Assembly: GCA_003557485.1 (NCBI GenBank)
Contig: PWOI01000210.1
Coordinates: 1-6,316, forward strand
Source of the DNA: Elusimicrobiota bacterium
GTDB taxonomy: Bacteria; CG03; SLGR01; PWQF01
DNA: 6,316 nt
Reading direction: 5' to 3'
Positions 12-6,212 of this stretch are shown one piece after another. Both the position numbers and the translations under genes were made by a program. The notes beneath the pieces were generated by a model. The model ran no database searches and was not told where the DNA came from. It saw only the letters and a list, made by a program, of their open reading frames with translations. Numbering within the stretch: position 1 is the stretch's first letter; each line of letters starts with the position of its first letter.

Positions 12-1481
12 TTAAGTATTATTATGCTTCCAGTTATCAATTAACTTGGAATATAATATTTTCTGCTCAAGGTCAGCGATCAGGTGAATATTGCCAGAGG
101 CAAGGGCGGTTATGCTGTTCCAGGATAATAGTACAGACAAAATTTCACCCCAGAAAAGCCAGCCTTTTTCCGCATAGGACTTTTTTATTACATTCGTTAT
201 TCGTCTTAGTTTAATAATAAAACTCAATTTTACCAGGAATATACTGCTCATATTTTCTGAAGTTAAAAAATATGAGTTCTTAAGTCTGAATTTTTTCCTG
301 TGAATGGCCTTTCGCTGAAGTGTATCATCGGAGAGTTCAACTTTGGGGAGCGGCCAATAGAAGATATACAAAGTTGTCAGCGGGTTGAGTTCATTTGCAA
401 AAGACAGAGTCTTTTTGATTGAATCTTTTGTTTCTCCCGGCGCTCCCACAATAACGCTTATATTGCATCCCACTCCGGCATTTTTGAGAAATACGACAGC
501 ATTTTTGATTTGTTCTTTGCTTAACATTTTTCGGTATAAACCGTTTCGTACTCGGTCATCACCGGATTCAACACCCAGGCTGACCATTATGCAGCCTGCT
601 TCCGCAACTGTTTCTGCCCATTCTTTTGTTATGATATCTGCACGGGTTGTGCATACCCAGGGGATTTTTTGACGTAATCCTTCTTTAATGTAAAGATGAC
701 AGAATTCTTTAAGCCACCCGGGATTCATTCCAAATATTTCATCGCTCATAAAGATACTGGTTAAACCGCTATCTTTAAATTTCTCATAGTTTATTGTTAT
801 CTCTTCAATAACTTTTGACGGATCCCTAAGTCTGTAATGTTTTCCGGGAGAAGCCTCCCGCAAAGCTTTATTTGAACAGAAAGTGCAGCTGTAGGGACAT
901 CCCCGCGAGGCCAGATGCCTTAATCCTCCGTTAAAAAAAAGCTCGTTCCGGAAATATCTTTTCATATCCCAGTAACTCCAATCGGGGAAAGAAAAATCAT
1001 CTAAATTATTATGATACGGTCTGAGGTTATTTTTGCAAATTTCGCCTTTGCTGTCTTTATACCAAATCCCTGCTACTTCAGGTCGTCTTCCCTCTGAGAG
1101 ACACCTGAAATACTCGACAGAAGAGACTTCTCCTTCTCCTATGCATATTGCGTCAACTAACGGGCTGGATATAGTCTCTTCAGGCATTAGTGTGGGATGG
1201 ACCCCTCCCCATAAAAACGGCACTCCAGGAAGGTTTTTTCTCAGAATACCCGCGATCAGGAGAGCGGCTCTGTAATTTGCGCTGTTAACCGAGAAAGCTA
1301 TCGCATCAGCCTGGAAGCTCTTTAAAAAGGATAAGGTGTGTTTTTTATAATCATTTTCGTGAAATGTGTAATCAAGCAAAGCAACTTTGTTTTCTTTTGC
1401 GACCGCTGTAATTACATATGAAAAACCTATATTCTGGCCGACTATACCCGATAGGTTAGGATTGATAAACAGTACGTTCAT
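12..1481 (-). CDS. B12-binding-domain radical SAM enzyme (BchE/HpnJ-like architecture)
   Basis: The protein has the two-domain layout of cobalamin-dependent radical SAM enzymes, which methylate, cyclise or rearrange unactivated carbons. Residue numbers are from the ATG. The N-terminus MNVLFINPN opens a Rossmann-type B12-binding domain with a conserved LWGGVHPTLMPEE segment near residues 90-102. I do not see the classical DxHxxG lower-ligand motif, as in many BchE-like members. The radical SAM core follows: SRGCPYSCTFC gives CxxxCxxC at Cys195, Cys199 and Cys202. Downstream are the family-typical SLGVESGDDRV (about 301-311) and VIVGAPGET (about 343-351). The last roughly 110 residues are variable and basic to hydrophobic. 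The ORF can extend to a TTG at 1508, adding nine residues. I prefer the ATG at 1481 because the family usually begins M-x-V-L-x-I-N-P; neither start has a clear Shine-Dalgarno. It has its own promoter and leader. The substrate is unknown. Confidence 0.9.
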   Translation of the reverse strand: MNVLFINPNLSGIVGQNIGFSYVITAVAKENKVALLDYTFHENDYKKHTLSFLKSFQADAIAFSVNSANYRAALLIAGILRKNLPGVPFLWGGVHPTLMPEETISSPLVDAICIGEGEVSSVEYFRCLSEGRRPEVAGIWYKDSKGEICKNNLRPYHNNLDDFSFPDWSYWDMKRYFRNELFFNGGLRHLASRGCPYSCTFCSNKALREASPGKHYRLRDPSKVIEEITINYEKFKDSGLTSIFMSDEIFGMNPGWLKEFCHLYIKEGLRQKIPWVCTTRADIITKEWAETVAEAGCIMVSLGVESGDDRVRNGLYRKMLSKEQIKNAVVFLKNAGVGCNISVIVGAPGETKDSIKKTLSFANELNPLTTLYIFYWPLPKVELSDDTLQRKAIHRKKFRLKNSYFLTSENMSSIFLVKLSFIIKLRRITNVIKKSYAEKGWLFWGEILSVLLSWNSITALASGNIHLIADLEQKILYSKLIDNWKHNNT

Positions 1482-1534
1482 TTTTGAAAAATAAGAATCA
1501 ACTTTCAACGAATTTCTGACAACTATTCAATTTA

Positions 1535-1585
1535 TTAGAGCAGGGAACATATTCTTTTTCCGGCAAAGAGCTGGTTCAGGCTCAT
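1535..1585 (-). CDS. Possible 16-aa leader peptide within the structured leader
   Basis: A short reading frame, ATG to TAA, would encode MSLNQLFAGKRICSLL. A GGGG stretch lies a few bases upstream of its ATG, and a GGGAG lies further upstream, so its ribosome-binding site looks better than that of the downstream B12-type radical SAM gene. The start codon lies inside the 5' arm of a strong hairpin (1562-1589), so translation and folding would compete. It ends 53 bp before the ATG of the radical SAM gene. It could be a regulatory leader peptide or a chance ORF in structured RNA. It shows no similarity I recognise. Confidence 0.2.
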   Translation of the reverse strand: MSLNQLFAGKRICSLL

Positions 1586-1633
1586 TGCCCCGTGCTCCCA
1601 ATTGTACAAGTGTCTTATGGGCGCTATGTTTCC
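1543..1633 (-). ncRNA. Candidate structured 5' leader (three-way junction) upstream of the B12 radical SAM gene
   Basis: On the minus strand three stems can form together. The closing stem pairs GGAAACAT (1633-1626) with ATGTTCC (1550-1544), with one bulged A. The second pairs GCGCCCA (1624-1618) with TGGGAGC (1600-1594), one mismatch. The third pairs GGCAATGAGC (1589-1580) with GCTCTTTGCC (1571-1562), nine of ten pairs around an 8-base loop. The element starts about 14 bases after the predicted transcription start and ends 62 bases before the downstream ATG. It has no U-tract, so it is not an intrinsic terminator. I see no B12-box, TPP, SAM-I or FMN signature. A riboswitch-like role is inference only; pairing was done by eye. 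Confidence 0.4.
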
Positions 1634-1653
1634 AAGGGTTTGATATTATAATA

Positions 1654-1683
1654 AGTATAATAATTTATAGCATATGATGTCAA
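1654..1683 (-). promoter_or_regulatory. Sigma70-type promoter for the B12 radical SAM gene
   Basis: Reading the minus strand, a perfect -35 box TTGACA (1683-1678) is followed after 18 bp by TATACT (1659-1654), five of six matches to TATAAT. Transcription would begin near 1647, giving a leader of about 165 nt before the ATG at 1481. A second hexamer, TATAAT, lies slightly downstream (1650-1645) but is badly spaced from this -35. The promoter lies just past the aminotransferase stop, so the last gene can be expressed separately from the upstream operon. Confidence 0.7.
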
Positions 1684-1722
1684 AAACTTAGCGGAGCAAA
1701 GAATATTTAAAGAGAAGCGGGT

Positions 1723-2640
1723 TTAATCAATTTCCGTTATCCATCCTTCGGGGATATTTGCCCCGGATCCGTTGAGATGGGAAATATAGGCAGTTCTTAT
1801 TTTTTTCGTTATATTTTTCCGTGAGCGTTTTAATCTAGTCGTGTCAATGGAGGCTGCACTGCGAATGCCCCCGGCGGTGCTGGTAAGAAAAACCTCATCA
1901 GCAGTGTACAGATCCTCTTTGGTCATAACCCCGGTTTTACAATCAATACCGCAGGATTCAGCTATGTGAATGACAGTTCTTTTTGTGATGCCGTCTATGG
2001 CTCCGGGGCAGTCAGGGGTTATTAGGCAGTTGTTTTTAAGAATAAAAACGTTTGCGGCGCTTGCTTCTGAAATGTTCCCGTTATCATTCAGAAGAACCGC
2101 TTCTCCGGCGCCAAGGTTCAAGGCTTCTGTTCTTGCCAGCAGGTTAATCAGGTATTTCCCTGAAACTTTTGCGCCAAGCAGAGCCCGGGGCGGGGTGTTT
2201 GCGTAATTCGTGGAAAGAATCAGTTTTTTAGGGGCTTTCATGGAGATAAAATAGGCGCGGCTGTTAAACCTGCGCCCCATCAGGGCAAACCCGGCTTTTT
2301 TTGATCTAACTTTCAACTCCCTGTAGCTACCTCTGCTGAAAATAAGGGGACGTATGTAATAGCTTCCCTTTTTTTGGTTCCTTATAAAGTCTTTTACGTC
2401 AGAACAGGCTTTCTCCTCCGTGAGCGGAACTTTCAGCCCCAGCTTCTCAGCGGAAATAAAAAGCCTGTGTATGTGATCATTCAGACGGAAAATTCTCAGA
2501 GCACCTCCGCTTCTGATGCAAAGAATTCCTTCAAAGGCGCAGAGTCCATACTGAAAAGCCTGTCCGGAAAGGATCTCTCCTGCTCCGGTATTATCCGAAA
2601 ATTCCGGGGTAAGATATATTTGCTTATAGGTTTTTTTCAT
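1723..2640 (-). CDS. Class IV PLP-dependent aminotransferase, branched-chain (IlvE) type
   Basis: This fold-type IV aminotransferase most likely moves amino groups between a branched-chain or other hydrophobic 2-oxo acid and glutamate. Visible family features are FQYGLCAFEG (29-38) in the substrate pocket, LNDHIHRLFISA with phosphate-binding Arg59, and SYYIRPLIF with Tyr95 and Arg97. The PLP lysine is probably Lys158 in GAKVSGKYL. The segment SEASAANVF carries the cofactor-contacting Glu192, followed by DGITKRTV and DEVFLTSTAGGI. Tyr31, Phe36, Arg59, Tyr95 and Arg97 fall at numbers matching E. coli IlvE as I recall it. At 305 aa the length fits the family. The segment between Arg97 and Lys158 is unlike classical IlvE, so a specialised substrate is possible; a D-amino-acid transaminase or aminodeoxychorismate lyase is less likely. 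The ATG overlaps the upstream radical SAM gene by 17 bp, with purine-rich AAGAGAAAG before it, implying translational coupling. Confidence 0.88.
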   Translation of the reverse strand: MKKTYKQIYLTPEFSDNTGAGEILSGQAFQYGLCAFEGILCIRSGGALRIFRLNDHIHRLFISAEKLGLKVPLTEEKACSDVKDFIRNQKKGSYYIRPLIFSRGSYRELKVRSKKAGFALMGRRFNSRAYFISMKAPKKLILSTNYANTPPRALLGAKVSGKYLINLLARTEALNLGAGEAVLLNDNGNISEASAANVFILKNNCLITPDCPGAIDGITKRTVIHIAESCGIDCKTGVMTKEDLYTADEVFLTSTAGGIRSAASIDTTRLKRSRKNITKKIRTAYISHLNGSGANIPEGWITEID

Positions 2641-3685
2641 CTTTCTCTTGTTTAAGTAAACGTTTTTTTTCCTTTATGATATTGGCATAACAGAAGGGGA
2701 GAATCTTGCCGTCCATATAGTAACCGGTATTGCACCTGTCTATTTCATACATGTTGATATCCGTTTCATCCGGCCAGGACCTGACACCGATTTTCAGCAT
2801 GTTTTTATTGTGAGCCCAGGGTTTCGTATCAATGCGGAAAAGCACTTTTTTTACGGCGTTGTATAGAAAATTTATTGCACGGGGCCTTAATAAACCGGAG
2901 AGCCCGCCTGTAAAAGGGAAAGCCGGTGTTTCCGTTCGGTTCTCAGGAGAGGTAATATAAAAATCAAAGAAACAGCTCCGGATTGGAAAAATATTAAACG
3001 GGGAGATACTGTTTATTGTTTTTTTGAATTTGAGCGACCGTTCAAGATCGCGTTTCGTTATAGCCTTATGACGGCACAGGATGTCTAGAATTTCCTCTAC
3101 GCTGTACTTGCGGCTTGCGGCAAACCGCCCAAGCGGAGCTGCTGAACGTATGCGGAGTTCTTTTATGAATTTTCTATGCTGAAAGGCATAGTCGATCAGC
3201 CCGTTAATTTCTTTTTCATTTACTCCCGGCACCAGAAGCACCGATAGAATAATGCGATAGTTCAGGCGCATAAGGTTATTCAAAGCAGCCAGTTTCTTAT
3301 CCAGTAAGGCCTCGCCGTTTATTTTTTTATAAGTATCGTCCGAGAATCCGTTTAATGAGAATGAAACATATCTTAATCCGTTTTGTTTAAGTTTCAGGGC
3401 ATACCGGTAATCCGCCAGCAGGATGCCGTTAGTTATAAGGAAAACCGTATTATTTTGAGAAAACATATTAATTATCTCCGGCAAATCCGACCTTAAGGTA
3501 GGCTCTCCGCCGCAAATGGAAATTATTATTCCCTGAAATTCCTTTGAGATTTGTTCAAGTTTATCTAAAGGGATATCCTTTCCACTGCCTGGAACCCGGT
3601 AGCATATTTCGCAGTCAAGGTTGCATTTAGTAGTGATATCCAGCATCACCTTATCGTATCTGGCGTGTTTGTTTCTAAGTCTCAT
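2624..3685 (-). CDS. Radical SAM enzyme, Tes/MJ0619-like, lacking the N-terminal cysteine module (353 aa)
   Basis: DITTKCNLDCEICYR gives CxxxCxxC at Cys21, Cys25 and Cys28, which binds the catalytic [4Fe-4S] cluster. SICGGEPTLR (57-65) is the SAM-binding GGEP motif, with LITNG (83-87) and SFSLNG (108-113) following in the barrel. Further on are SAAPLGR (181-187) and a single Cys238. The tail, YEIDRC then ILPFCYANII, holds Cys318 and Cys332, resembling the C-x(n)-PFC tail I associate with Tes/MJ0619-type enzymes. It aligns by eye with the neighbouring 469-aa radical SAM enzyme along its length, but begins only about 20 residues before the cluster motif and lacks the CPxC module. The start ATG has only a weak AGG upstream; an in-frame TAA two codons earlier rules out a longer version without a frameshift. 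It overlaps the 33-codon small ORF upstream and the aminotransferase downstream. The substrate is unknown. Confidence 0.85.
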   Translation of the reverse strand: MRLRNKHARYDKVMLDITTKCNLDCEICYRVPGSGKDIPLDKLEQISKEFQGIIISICGGEPTLRSDLPEIINMFSQNNTVFLITNGILLADYRYALKLKQNGLRYVSFSLNGFSDDTYKKINGEALLDKKLAALNNLMRLNYRIILSVLLVPGVNEKEINGLIDYAFQHRKFIKELRIRSAAPLGRFAASRKYSVEEILDILCRHKAITKRDLERSLKFKKTINSISPFNIFPIRSCFFDFYITSPENRTETPAFPFTGGLSGLLRPRAINFLYNAVKKVLFRIDTKPWAHNKNMLKIGVRSWPDETDINMYEIDRCNTGYYMDGKILPFCYANIIKEKKRLLKQEKDEKNL

Positions 3686-3776
3686 ATTTTATAAACCTGT
3701 ACCACCGGGCCGCGATCCTGAAATATCCCGGAAACTTGTGCAAAACAATCTGACAAAATAGCCTAAAATCCTTCAT
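3675..3776 (-). CDS. Candidate 33-aa small protein between the two radical SAM genes
   Basis: An ATG lies 2 bp after the stop of the 469-aa radical SAM gene (TAATAATG context). The frame ends in TAG 11 bp inside the next radical SAM gene, so it fills the gap exactly, as a coupled cistron would. The peptide starts MKDFRLFCQIVLHK and continues FPGYFRIAARWYRFIKYET; it is strongly basic and aromatic, with one cysteine and an amphipathic look. There is no convincing Shine-Dalgarno, so expression would rely on coupling. Alternatives are a chance ORF, or the N-terminus of the downstream radical SAM protein split off by a frameshift. The latter is plausible because related enzymes often have a short basic aromatic helix just before the radical SAM domain. 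A radical SAM substrate peptide is a weaker possibility. Confidence 0.4.
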   Translation of the reverse strand: MKDFRLFCQIVLHKFPGYFRIAARWYRFIKYET

Positions 3777-3778
3777 TA

Positions 3779-5188
3779 TTAATGCTGGTTATGCCGAATC
3801 CCTGTGTTTTTATAACGGTTTAGCAGTTCATCCGTCTTCCGGGTCAGGTGTTTACCGGATAAAGTATGGTTAAAGATAATCTGCCGGACGCATGCGGAAT
3901 ATATCTGATCGCTTTCTGGATTGAAATCCGAGTACAGGTTGCAGGAATTCAGCATATCAAAGTCAATGTTTTCCGCGGTTTGAAAAGTTCCAATTATAAT
4001 ACTTGTAAGCGGAGTCTCTTTCAGAAACGAGATCCCTGTTTTTTTAAGGAGTATCATTTTAATAAAACTGAATGTCAGTTTCCTAAAATTTCTGTTTGTG
4101 AGAAAACCTGCTGAGAACTCTGCCAGAAGAAGAGGAAGAGTGCAGTATCGGAACAGGAAATTACCCGGTTTTTTATTTTTCGGACCGATAAAGATGTTTA
4201 AAAGGCGGTTGATTTTCCTAATGTTAAGAATTTTAGATAAAGGAACAGGCCGGGAATTGTTCCATAATATATAGCATCTAAGTTCACACAAAGGCTGGCT
4301 TATATGGGTTATCTTTTTACTGATTCTTGAAAGCAAATAGTGAAATAGATACGCAAACTCTGTGCAGCTCAGAAAATCTTCAGGCTCAATACCGGTCTGA
4401 GAAGTTATCTGATTCAGTATTTCTGAAGCGGTTGTCGGTTTATGGGGCGGTCGTCTACCTGTTTCCCATACAGGATTAAAGTTGATGATGCGAACAAATC
4501 TGTATTTTCGGGTAAGATGTAGTAGCTCCGATATTTCGCAGAAATTGTTTTCTTTCGTGAGCATAACAAAAAGATATACCGGGATTTTATGCTTACTCAT
4601 ATTTTCTATTACCTGGGTTTTTATCTTGACCATAGGTTCTCCCCGCAGGAACTCATAGGTTCTGTCTTTCAGAGAGTCAAACTGTAAAATAATAAAGTCA
4701 ACCCCTGCTTTTTTTAGCTCAGATGCATATGAATAATCCTGTAGATTTTTTCCGTTGGTAAACAACCCCACCGTATATTTTCTGCGTTTTAACCGTTTAA
4801 TTAAAGAAATAAGATGCCTGGAAGTTGTGGGTTCACCCCCTGAAATGTATATAAGGCGGCCTTTGTAATCGGACAATAAAGAGTCAATTTCTTTGGTGCT
4901 CAGCTCCCTTGCTCTTGTCTCTTTTGCGTGTGCGAAACAGAAAGGACACCTCATATTGCAGTCAGTAGTAAGATTAATTACCAGTCCGGGGTGCTGAAGT
5001 TTGGGCAGCTTCCTAAAACCTGTTATTCTGTTATATATATTTTTCTTGTCCCAGATGTGTTTATGCCTGAAGGTACCGTGCTCCGCGCATTTCTTTTCAA
5101 TAAATACATCCCCATATTCAATAGTTCTGGCGCTGATCACGTTAAGGCAAACAGGACATAAGCTCAGAGTATTTTTCAGTGTAGCCAT
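3779..5188 (-). CDS. Radical SAM enzyme, Tes/MJ0619-like, with N-terminal CPxC...CxxHG module (469 aa)
   Basis: The protein opens with a metal-binding module, LCPVC (Cys11, Cys14) and KKCAEHGTF (Cys34, His37), typical of Tes/MJ0619-type enzymes, where it is thought to hold a rubredoxin-like iron. LTTDCNMRCPFCFAHA supplies CxxxCxxC at Cys77, Cys81 and Cys84. YISGGEPTTS (114-123) is the SAM motif, and LFTNGK (142-147) and LQFDSLKD (168-175) continue the barrel. NPVWETGRRPP (238-248) matches the P-x-x-G-R region of its neighbour. Cys301 and Cys305 (QPLCELRCY) plus Cys416 and Cys433 could bind auxiliary clusters. Characterised relatives couple lipid chains in archaeal tetraether synthesis or methylate the methanopterin precursor; the reaction here cannot be told. 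The tail departs from the usual PFCxYN, reading IYSACVRQII. The ATG at 5188 is the first start after an in-frame TAG at 5222-5224; no clear Shine-Dalgarno is seen. Confidence 0.87.
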   Translation of the reverse strand: MATLKNTLSLCPVCLNVISARTIEYGDVFIEKKCAEHGTFRHKHIWDKKNIYNRITGFRKLPKLQHPGLVINLTTDCNMRCPFCFAHAKETRARELSTKEIDSLLSDYKGRLIYISGGEPTTSRHLISLIKRLKRRKYTVGLFTNGKNLQDYSYASELKKAGVDFIILQFDSLKDRTYEFLRGEPMVKIKTQVIENMSKHKIPVYLFVMLTKENNFCEISELLHLTRKYRFVRIINFNPVWETGRRPPHKPTTASEILNQITSQTGIEPEDFLSCTEFAYLFHYLLSRISKKITHISQPLCELRCYILWNNSRPVPLSKILNIRKINRLLNIFIGPKNKKPGNFLFRYCTLPLLLAEFSAGFLTNRNFRKLTFSFIKMILLKKTGISFLKETPLTSIIIGTFQTAENIDFDMLNSCNLYSDFNPESDQIYSACVRQIIFNHTLSGKHLTRKTDELLNRYKNTGIRHNQH

Positions 5189-5378
5189 ATAAGTAAACGC
5201 ATTTTTTATATCAGGAAACCACTATGCAATAAGAAATGATTTTTTTTTCCTGCCGCCCTGCTGGTTATCATTATTAATACGCATTGCCTAAAGATTTTTA
5301 CTCTTTTTCAGTATTCTGCGGGAAACTTTTTCCGAAATGTAAGCGAGTTAGAGACGGCATTGCTTTTTATTATCCGTG
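5189..5378. other. Intergenic gap between the UbiA-like and long radical SAM genes
   Basis: This 190-bp stretch shows no convincing promoter or terminator on the minus strand. It contains a 9-base A run (minus strand) inside a weak inverted repeat, CAGGAAA and TTTCCTG about 28 bp apart, just before the radical SAM gene. A small GGAAA/TTTCC hairpin also occurs, without a U-tract. Two 20-codon ORFs occur (5222-5284 and 5298-5360), neither with a strong ribosome-binding site. The genes on either side could be co-transcribed through it. Confidence 0.4.
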
Positions 5379-6212
5379 CTATATCCGGTAGAAATATACT
5401 GCAAGTAAAGTGCCAAAAACAATATTGTAATACCTTAACCTGTTTCTTATCACTGGGAAAGAGTTATGCCTGTGAAGCAGCAGGATTATTATAAAAGCAT
5501 AAATAGTTGTAAATAGTGAGAAGAGGATATCAAGTTCTCCTGATACGCTAATCAGCACTGAGTATAAGGCCCATAGCAGAACGGTGATGGCCGAGAGTTT
5601 TTTTGATGAAATATCGCTGTAGGGCCAGTATCGGTCCATAGATTTATGAGAGGCCATATGGATTATTTGAAAAGGGATGATTCCCAGCCAGATATAAATA
5701 GATATAATTATGAAAGAGCTCTGAATGGATTTGTTTATCACCCAGCCTATAGCAAATAGTAGTGTAAATCCTGTAGAGTTTAATATTAAATTGAAGGTTG
5801 GAAACTTTTTCAGGTTGAAACTGTCCGACGAGTACAGATAATTAACAGCGGCGCCTGTAATAAATATCAAGAGAACTGTTTTATTAATAAATGCCGCAAG
5901 CACAAGGGCCGGAACTGGTGCAATAGCAGATGCATACAGGGTGTTTTTTTTTTCTTCAGCCGGCAAATTATCGTCAAAATTAAGATTTAGCGAATATCCG
6001 TGAGCAAGGTAGGAGGCGGCTATAAAAAACATAAATAAAAGACCGCTTACTCTGATCTGTGAAGAACTGAAAATATAACCTAGAAATGCTATACCGGTAT
6101 TGTAATACCAATCCCCGATCCTAAGTGACTTAAGAGTGCTTTTAACACTAAACATAAAATAAGTATATAAAATAATAAGAGTCTTGTCTAACCAAAGTCT
6201 TTTCCAACGCAA
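5379..6212 (-). CDS. UbiA-superfamily-like membrane protein with altered Asp motifs
   Basis: This is an integral membrane protein with about eight or nine predicted helices, the usual number for UbiA-family prenyltransferases, which transfer isoprenyl chains onto aromatic or other acceptors. Numbers are from the TTG. The N-terminal LRIGDWYYNTG resembles the family's first helix. The first Asp-rich motif, normally NDxxDxxxD, is NLNFDDNLP, keeping Asn76, Asp80 and Asp81. YSSDSFNLKKFP (127-138) matches the Tyr-x-Ser...Arg/Lys-Leu-Lys loop. The second motif, normally DxxxD, appears as HMASHKSMDR, with His185, His189 and Asp193. The metal site is therefore partly replaced, so the protein may be a divergent transferase or have another function. 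The TTG at 6212 has AGG six bases upstream; an internal ATG at 6155 (MFSVKSTLK) is a reasonable alternative start that still includes the first helix. It is first in the row of genes. Confidence 0.72.
   Translation of the reverse strand: MRWKRLWLDKTLIILYTYFMFSVKSTLKSLRIGDWYYNTGIAFLGYIFSSSQIRVSGLLFMFFIAASYLAHGYSLNLNFDDNLPAEEKKNTLYASAIAPVPALVLAAFINKTVLLIFITGAAVNYLYSSDSFNLKKFPTFNLILNSTGFTLLFAIGWVINKSIQSSFIIISIYIWLGIIPFQIIHMASHKSMDRYWPYSDISSKKLSAITVLLWALYSVLISVSGELDILFSLFTTIYAFIIILLLHRHNSFPVIRNRLRYYNIVFGTLLAVYFYRI

Follow-up and report, generated by a model that had tools for sequence, protein, structure and literature searches.

The 6,316-nucleotide stretch analysed here (hereafter the window), which is the entire contig C133 of a 2.07 Mb draft genome of an Elusimicrobiota bacterium (212 contigs, estimated completeness 87%), carries five co-directional genes that may form a rare, lineage-restricted operon making a modified lipid or another hydrophobic metabolite, a reading to which a probability of roughly 40% is given. 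All five genes belong to known enzyme superfamilies, of which they are divergent members, and the combination was found neither described in a literature search nor repeated elsewhere, no orthologous cluster appearing in the genomes searched beyond the source assembly.

All five genes are long ORFs on the minus strand and are read in the order UbiA-like, rSAM1, rSAM2, aminotransferase and B12 radical SAM. The first one (5379..6155, minus strand) encodes a UbiA-like integral membrane protein of 258 aa from an ATG at 6155, a TTG at 6212 being a less likely start, and has no direct Pfam match. rSAM1 (469 aa; 3779..5188, minus strand) harbors an HMPTM/rubredoxin-like ribbon, a radical SAM core and a Tes-type C-terminal domain, whereas rSAM2 (353 aa; 2624..3685, minus strand) has the radical SAM core and the Tes-type C-terminal Cys but no N-terminal ribbon. 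They are followed by a class IV (IlvE-like) aminotransferase of 305 aa that has kept its PLP-lysine region AKVSGKY (1723..2640, minus strand) and, as last gene, by a B12-binding radical SAM protein of the BchE/HpnJ type (489 aa; 12..1481, minus strand, ATG at 1481). In a Pfam search, three proteins matched Radical_SAM, one matched B12-binding and one Aminotran_4; rSAM1 also matched the HMPTM zinc ribbon. The five co-directional genes of the preliminary description, as well as its three radical SAM families and its IlvE-like family, are thus confirmed. Its statement that the central genes overlap or nearly touch holds for rSAM2 and the aminotransferase gene, which overlap by 17 nt, but not for the other neighbors, separated by 190 nt (UbiA-like to rSAM1), 93 nt (rSAM1 to rSAM2) and 241 nt (aminotransferase to B12 radical SAM).

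The contig stops just beyond the UbiA-like gene, and the gene run is read within this one contig. At the other extremity, bases 1-121 of the window are identical to the end of contig C147, the simplest explanation being that the two overlap in the assembly graph. On C147, a sulfatase-like gene is found together with a long beta-propeller-like gene; as the latter runs toward the B12 radical SAM gene in convergent orientation, the B12 radical SAM gene ends the run. A TAGACA-17-TATACT sequence at window positions 6155-6190 leaves 6 bases between its end and the ATG that starts the UbiA-like gene, and would mean a leaderless transcript. The GC content of the window (40%, vs 43% in three larger stretches of contigs from this genome) is weakly compatible with an acquisition from outside. 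An Rfam search of the window gave no match.

A second copy of most of the locus was found in the same assembly. Contig C190, 4006 bases long, matches window positions 1829-5795 at 86% identity and keeps the order UbiA-rSAM1-rSAM2-aminotransferase in the same orientation; the four ORFs are open in this copy too, two of them being cut by the contig ends. The dN/dS ratios between the copies are 0.14 for rSAM1, 0.17 for rSAM2, 0.18 for the UbiA part and 0.25 for the aminotransferase gene. This purifying selection indicates that the four genes are real and constrained rather than chance ORFs. The divergence is uneven, dS being about 0.7 along all of rSAM1 but only 0.2-0.3 in rSAM2, the aminotransferase gene and the UbiA part; such a mosaic is best explained by recombination, and C190 would represent either strain variation or another locus. 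Conserved order and orientation, together with purifying selection, in two copies differing at 14% of their bases support UbiA-rSAM1-rSAM2-aminotransferase as a four-gene unit, this evidence of linkage coming from two related copies in one assembly. The earlier proposal that all five genes serve one pathway therefore gains support for these four genes, and this support does not extend to the B12 radical SAM gene.

The membership of this last gene is weaker, because the 241-nt gap preceding it holds the best promoter-like site of the window. This site (TTGACA-18-TATACT; 1654..1683, minus strand), a consensus match only, is the sole 11-of-12 sigma-70-like site on the minus strand (0.08 expected by chance according to shuffles), and the B12 radical SAM gene may thus have a transcript of its own. 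The genes could even be adjacent but unrelated: the B12 radical SAM gene, and possibly the UbiA-like one as well, would then be transcribed and act apart from rSAM1-rSAM2-aminotransferase. The gaps of 190 and 241 nt, the promoter-like site and the several B12 radical SAM paralogues that the genome carries at other loci (one of them 40% identical, on contig C98) would fit this scenario. It is nevertheless considered unlikely, as UbiA-rSAM1-rSAM2-aminotransferase order is found in two copies, all genes are co-directional and a scan of the window for terminators found none on the minus strand. Upstream of the B12 radical SAM gene, window positions 1538-1630 also contain an open stretch, NIAPIRHLYNWEHGAMSLNQLFAGKRICSLL, that lacks an early start codon; this suggests a gene remnant or a leader peptide, and no homologue of it was found.

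The B12 radical SAM protein itself shares both domains of the BchE/HpnJ-type proteins, with scores above the cut-offs (58.6 bits for B12-binding and 74.9 bits for Radical_SAM), but falls far under every named cut-off. The nearest relative found is the paralogue on contig C98, whose neighbors are other B12 radical SAM genes, adenylating-enzyme-like genes and membrane-protein genes. This region (locus L101, 2-7836) includes four B12 radical SAM genes, one of which is truncated to 181 codons, along with phenylacetate-CoA-ligase-like and SGNH-hydrolase-like genes, and constitutes a second unusual radical SAM locus of the genome.

The gap between rSAM1 and rSAM2 is unalignable between the two copies (48% identity) although the genes are 83-93% identical. 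In the window, this 93-nt gap is filled by a hypothetical ORF of 33 codons (3675..3776, minus strand) that starts beside the rSAM1 stop and overlaps the rSAM2 start. The C190 gap has a 37-codon open frame of unrelated sequence that overlaps the rSAM2 start in a like manner. Such an arrangement could evoke a pathway for a ribosomal peptide whose small, hypervariable precursor would be encoded between rSAM1 and rSAM2. However, open frames of such size are jointly expected by chance in both gaps with a probability of about 6%, so that their openness is not significant; the two gap peptides share no convincing similarity, neither has a homologue in the loci compared and Pfam shows no precursor-binding domain. 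A peptide product thus appears very improbable.

GDGT-MAS joins archaeal membrane lipids; more generally, the enzymes of the Tes group link carbons that are not activated. No product is known for most of their bacterial homologues. rSAM1 is a distant homologue of Tes/GDGT-MAS, and rSAM2 is a second relative, as divergent as rSAM1 and devoid of the ribbon. For both proteins, GDGT-MAS (7tol) ranks first among PDB sequences, with E values of 8e-32 for rSAM1 (about 25% identity) and 1.4e-23 for rSAM2. The fold comparison, which covers rSAM1 only, aligned 381 residues of its AlphaFold model (residues 1 to 461) with 7tol (Z 33.4, 3.3 A), the next-best fold being MoaA (Z 18.2); this model was built from 22 sequences, including Tes-like ones, and has a mean pLDDT of 66.9, confidence being low in the C-terminus and in the helical cap. 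The likeness of rSAM1 to GDGT-MAS (Tes, MJ0619; PDB 7tol, 7tom) includes the full-length fold with its rubredoxin-like and C-terminal domains, the CX3CX2C motif and the C-terminal Cys. The assignment of the central enzymes to the Tes/MJ0619 type in the preliminary description stands for the fold of rSAM1 and at the superfamily level, but neither protein reaches the cut-off of the Tes model NF045702 (157 bits for rSAM1 and 100 bits for rSAM2 vs 450).

The motifs refine this picture. The crystal structure of GDGT-MAS displays a rubredoxin site (C9X2C12X20C33X2H36), an N-terminal cluster for which C73, C77, C80 and a His are the ligands and, besides the radical SAM cluster, a further one at the C-terminus with a labile Met439 (PMC9433317). 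The M439A substitution leaves GDGT-MAS active. A rubredoxin-like CX2C...CX2H site is present in rSAM1 (C11, C14, C34 and H37) and absent from rSAM2, and both proteins carry the radical SAM core CX3CX2C (C77, C81 and C84 in rSAM1; C21, C25 and C28 in rSAM2). The segment of the N-terminal auxiliary cluster is missing from both. Judging from a distant alignment, the Cys of the C-terminal domain would be C301, C416 and C433 in rSAM1, which has neither Met439 nor the second residue of the C-terminal CC pair, and C318 and C332 in rSAM2; these two are invariant in a 13-sequence alignment, in which Met439 is not kept. Residues 316-390 of rSAM1 are predicted to be helical and include many hydrophobic residues, and would correspond to the lipid-pocket helices of GDGT-MAS. 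Unlike the GDGT-MAS system, the window has two divergent copies side by side, other gene partners and no N-terminal auxiliary cluster. A recent duplication as the origin of rSAM1 and rSAM2 is ruled out by their 23% identity and their separate, very long branches in the tree. A defence role was also rejected, the weak viperin matches reflecting the radical SAM core only.

Among NCBIfam models, the top match of both proteins is TrsS (E 4.5e-50 for rSAM1 and 2.3e-37 for rSAM2), followed by Tes and then by MoaA models. TrsS and its halobacterial and Chloroflexota relatives share the layout of ribbon, radical SAM core and C-terminal Cys. These matches and the presence of an aminotransferase in the set could point to a non-lipid pathway, in which MoaA/TrsS-type radical chemistry would make a specialised small molecule or an amino-acid-derived metabolite. 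However, the full-length fold match is GDGT-MAS and both proteins fail the cut-off of the TrsS model NF045646 (170 and 129 bits vs 490). The TrsS-type relatives whose neighborhoods were read adjoin a methyltransferase gene and not UbiA, aminotransferase or B12 radical SAM genes, whereas no methyltransferase of the TrsM kind adjoins rSAM1 and rSAM2, which stand on separate very long branches and have a membrane protein inside their unit. The non-lipid pathway has some chance of being correct but is tentative at best.

The UbiA-like protein has about six hydrophobic segments and matches nothing in Pfam, NCBIfam or PDB (PF01040: none up to E 10; a PF01040 search of its own genome misses it). It does match a homologue from a genome of the same order, G009 (E 8e-4 in the search, 5e-8 pairwise, 24% identity over 187 columns), which is a UbiA (PF01040, E 4e-30). 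On sequence grounds, the protein would thus belong to the UbiA family, being recognisable only through this bridging homologue; the original label is upheld by homology and not by any direct match. It shares with the PF01040 prenyltransferases its polytopic membrane nature but differs from them by its lack of an own Pfam match and by its degraded Asp motifs, which are partly kept as N59-x-D61-D62 and H-x-x-x-D174, other positions being replaced, so that two intact Asp motifs cannot be recognised. Due to this degradation, prenyl transfer is uncertain and the isoprenoid attachment initially proposed appears unsafe. The structure predicted from the single sequence has a pLDDT of 46.8 and is unusable.

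The aminotransferase matches IlvE-type enzymes over its whole length and passes the class IV domain threshold (PF01063, 146 bits), but it scores 182.5 bits against TIGR01122 (IlvE), below the cut-off of 245.55. The genome encodes another IlvE-like protein on contig C42 (33% identical to the window copy) and a PF01040 UbiA on contig C104, beside an apparent polyprenyl synthase. The window copies of both families therefore look specialised.

The distribution of the locus was investigated in a phylum sample of 16 genomes, the source genome and 15 relatives. No match to rSAM1 was found at E 1e-20 in these relatives, one of which is from the same genus; as their genomes are 63-97% complete, this does not prove a true absence. 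Likewise, no orthologue was detected when five other phyla were scanned, about 1,675 genomes in total (sets of 345, 350, 195, 392 and 395 genomes; E 1e-28, or 1e-25 for the first set), which gave two weak distant matches; in such a scan, an empty answer shows little when there is no known positive. One scan of genome contigs yielded 50 distant relatives, mostly from Halobacteria, near none of which aminotransferase, UbiA-like or B12 radical SAM genes were found (tblastn, E 1e-4). Distant homologues lacking the other window genes nearby belong to Halobacteria, Chloroflexota, a deltaproteobacterium and two further genomes; in the tree, a large distance separates them from rSAM1 and rSAM2, and they may have another function. 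A search of 16 genomes carrying distant rSAM1 relatives did not find the UbiA-like protein. Scans of viral contigs with rSAM2 and the UbiA-like protein gave nothing, and a scan of plasmids with rSAM1 gave distant relatives only (<60% identity).

Some neighborhoods of these relatives deserve description. In three loci, including halobacterial ones (L008, 5986-8096; L007, 5980-8143; L069, 2753-6249), Tes/TrsS-like genes adjoin a methyltransferase gene, and the non-halobacterial one also adjoins an adenylating-enzyme-like gene. In a further locus (L070, 7907-9526), a ribbon-bearing Tes-like protein, apparently without the N-terminal cluster motif, groups weakly with rSAM2 in the tree; a nearby 199-codon ORF reads as acyltransferase-like.

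Taken as a whole, the putative pathway could be viewed as follows. The UbiA-like protein would make or hold a hydrophobic precursor at the membrane. rSAM1 and rSAM2 would use the 5'-deoxyadenosyl radical, probably together with a C-terminal auxiliary cluster, as Tes/GDGT-MAS does, and could either alkylate the precursor or create C-C or C-S bonds on inert carbons. The IlvE-type aminotransferase would supply or aminate a keto acid building block, branched-chain-like or aromatic. The B12 radical SAM protein, the weakest link as the last gene or one with its own promoter, may methylate or cyclise the product. A lipid product is favored by the Tes-like fold and the membrane protein. Nevertheless, Tes homologues are also found in Halobacteria that reportedly do not produce GDGTs (PMC8941075), and a Tes-like fold is therefore no proof of lipid work.

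Bacterial Tes homologues have been proposed to act in brGDGT synthesis (PMC8941075, PMC11868695), from iso-C15 tails (PMC8941075). A bacterial pathway for membrane-spanning lipids of the branched GDGT or iso-diabolic type could hence be envisaged, in which the aminotransferase would provide branched-chain starters for iso-fatty acids, the Tes-like enzymes would couple the tails and the B12 enzyme would add methyl branches. The Tes-like fold, the IlvE-like partner and the above proposal (PMC8941075) agree with it. However, an IlvE-like gene already exists elsewhere in the genome, rSAM1 and rSAM2 are both under the Tes cut-off, the window has no ether-forming enzyme, and this pathway would leave two divergent Tes-like genes and the UbiA-like gene unexplained; it is judged quite improbable. 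Within the preferred reading of a modified lipid or hydrophobic metabolite, two divergent Tes-like enzymes acting in series or paired might conceivably, although this is a rather long shot, work with a dedicated aminotransferase and a membrane protein derived from UbiA to give a new class of membrane lipid, such as an isoprenoid that is cross-linked or bears an amino group.

A compact operon with two Tes-like enzymes and defined partners would offer a tractable system for the function of bacterial Tes-like proteins. As membrane-spanning lipids serve as climate proxies, such an operon could also bear on the sources of the lipids used for this purpose.
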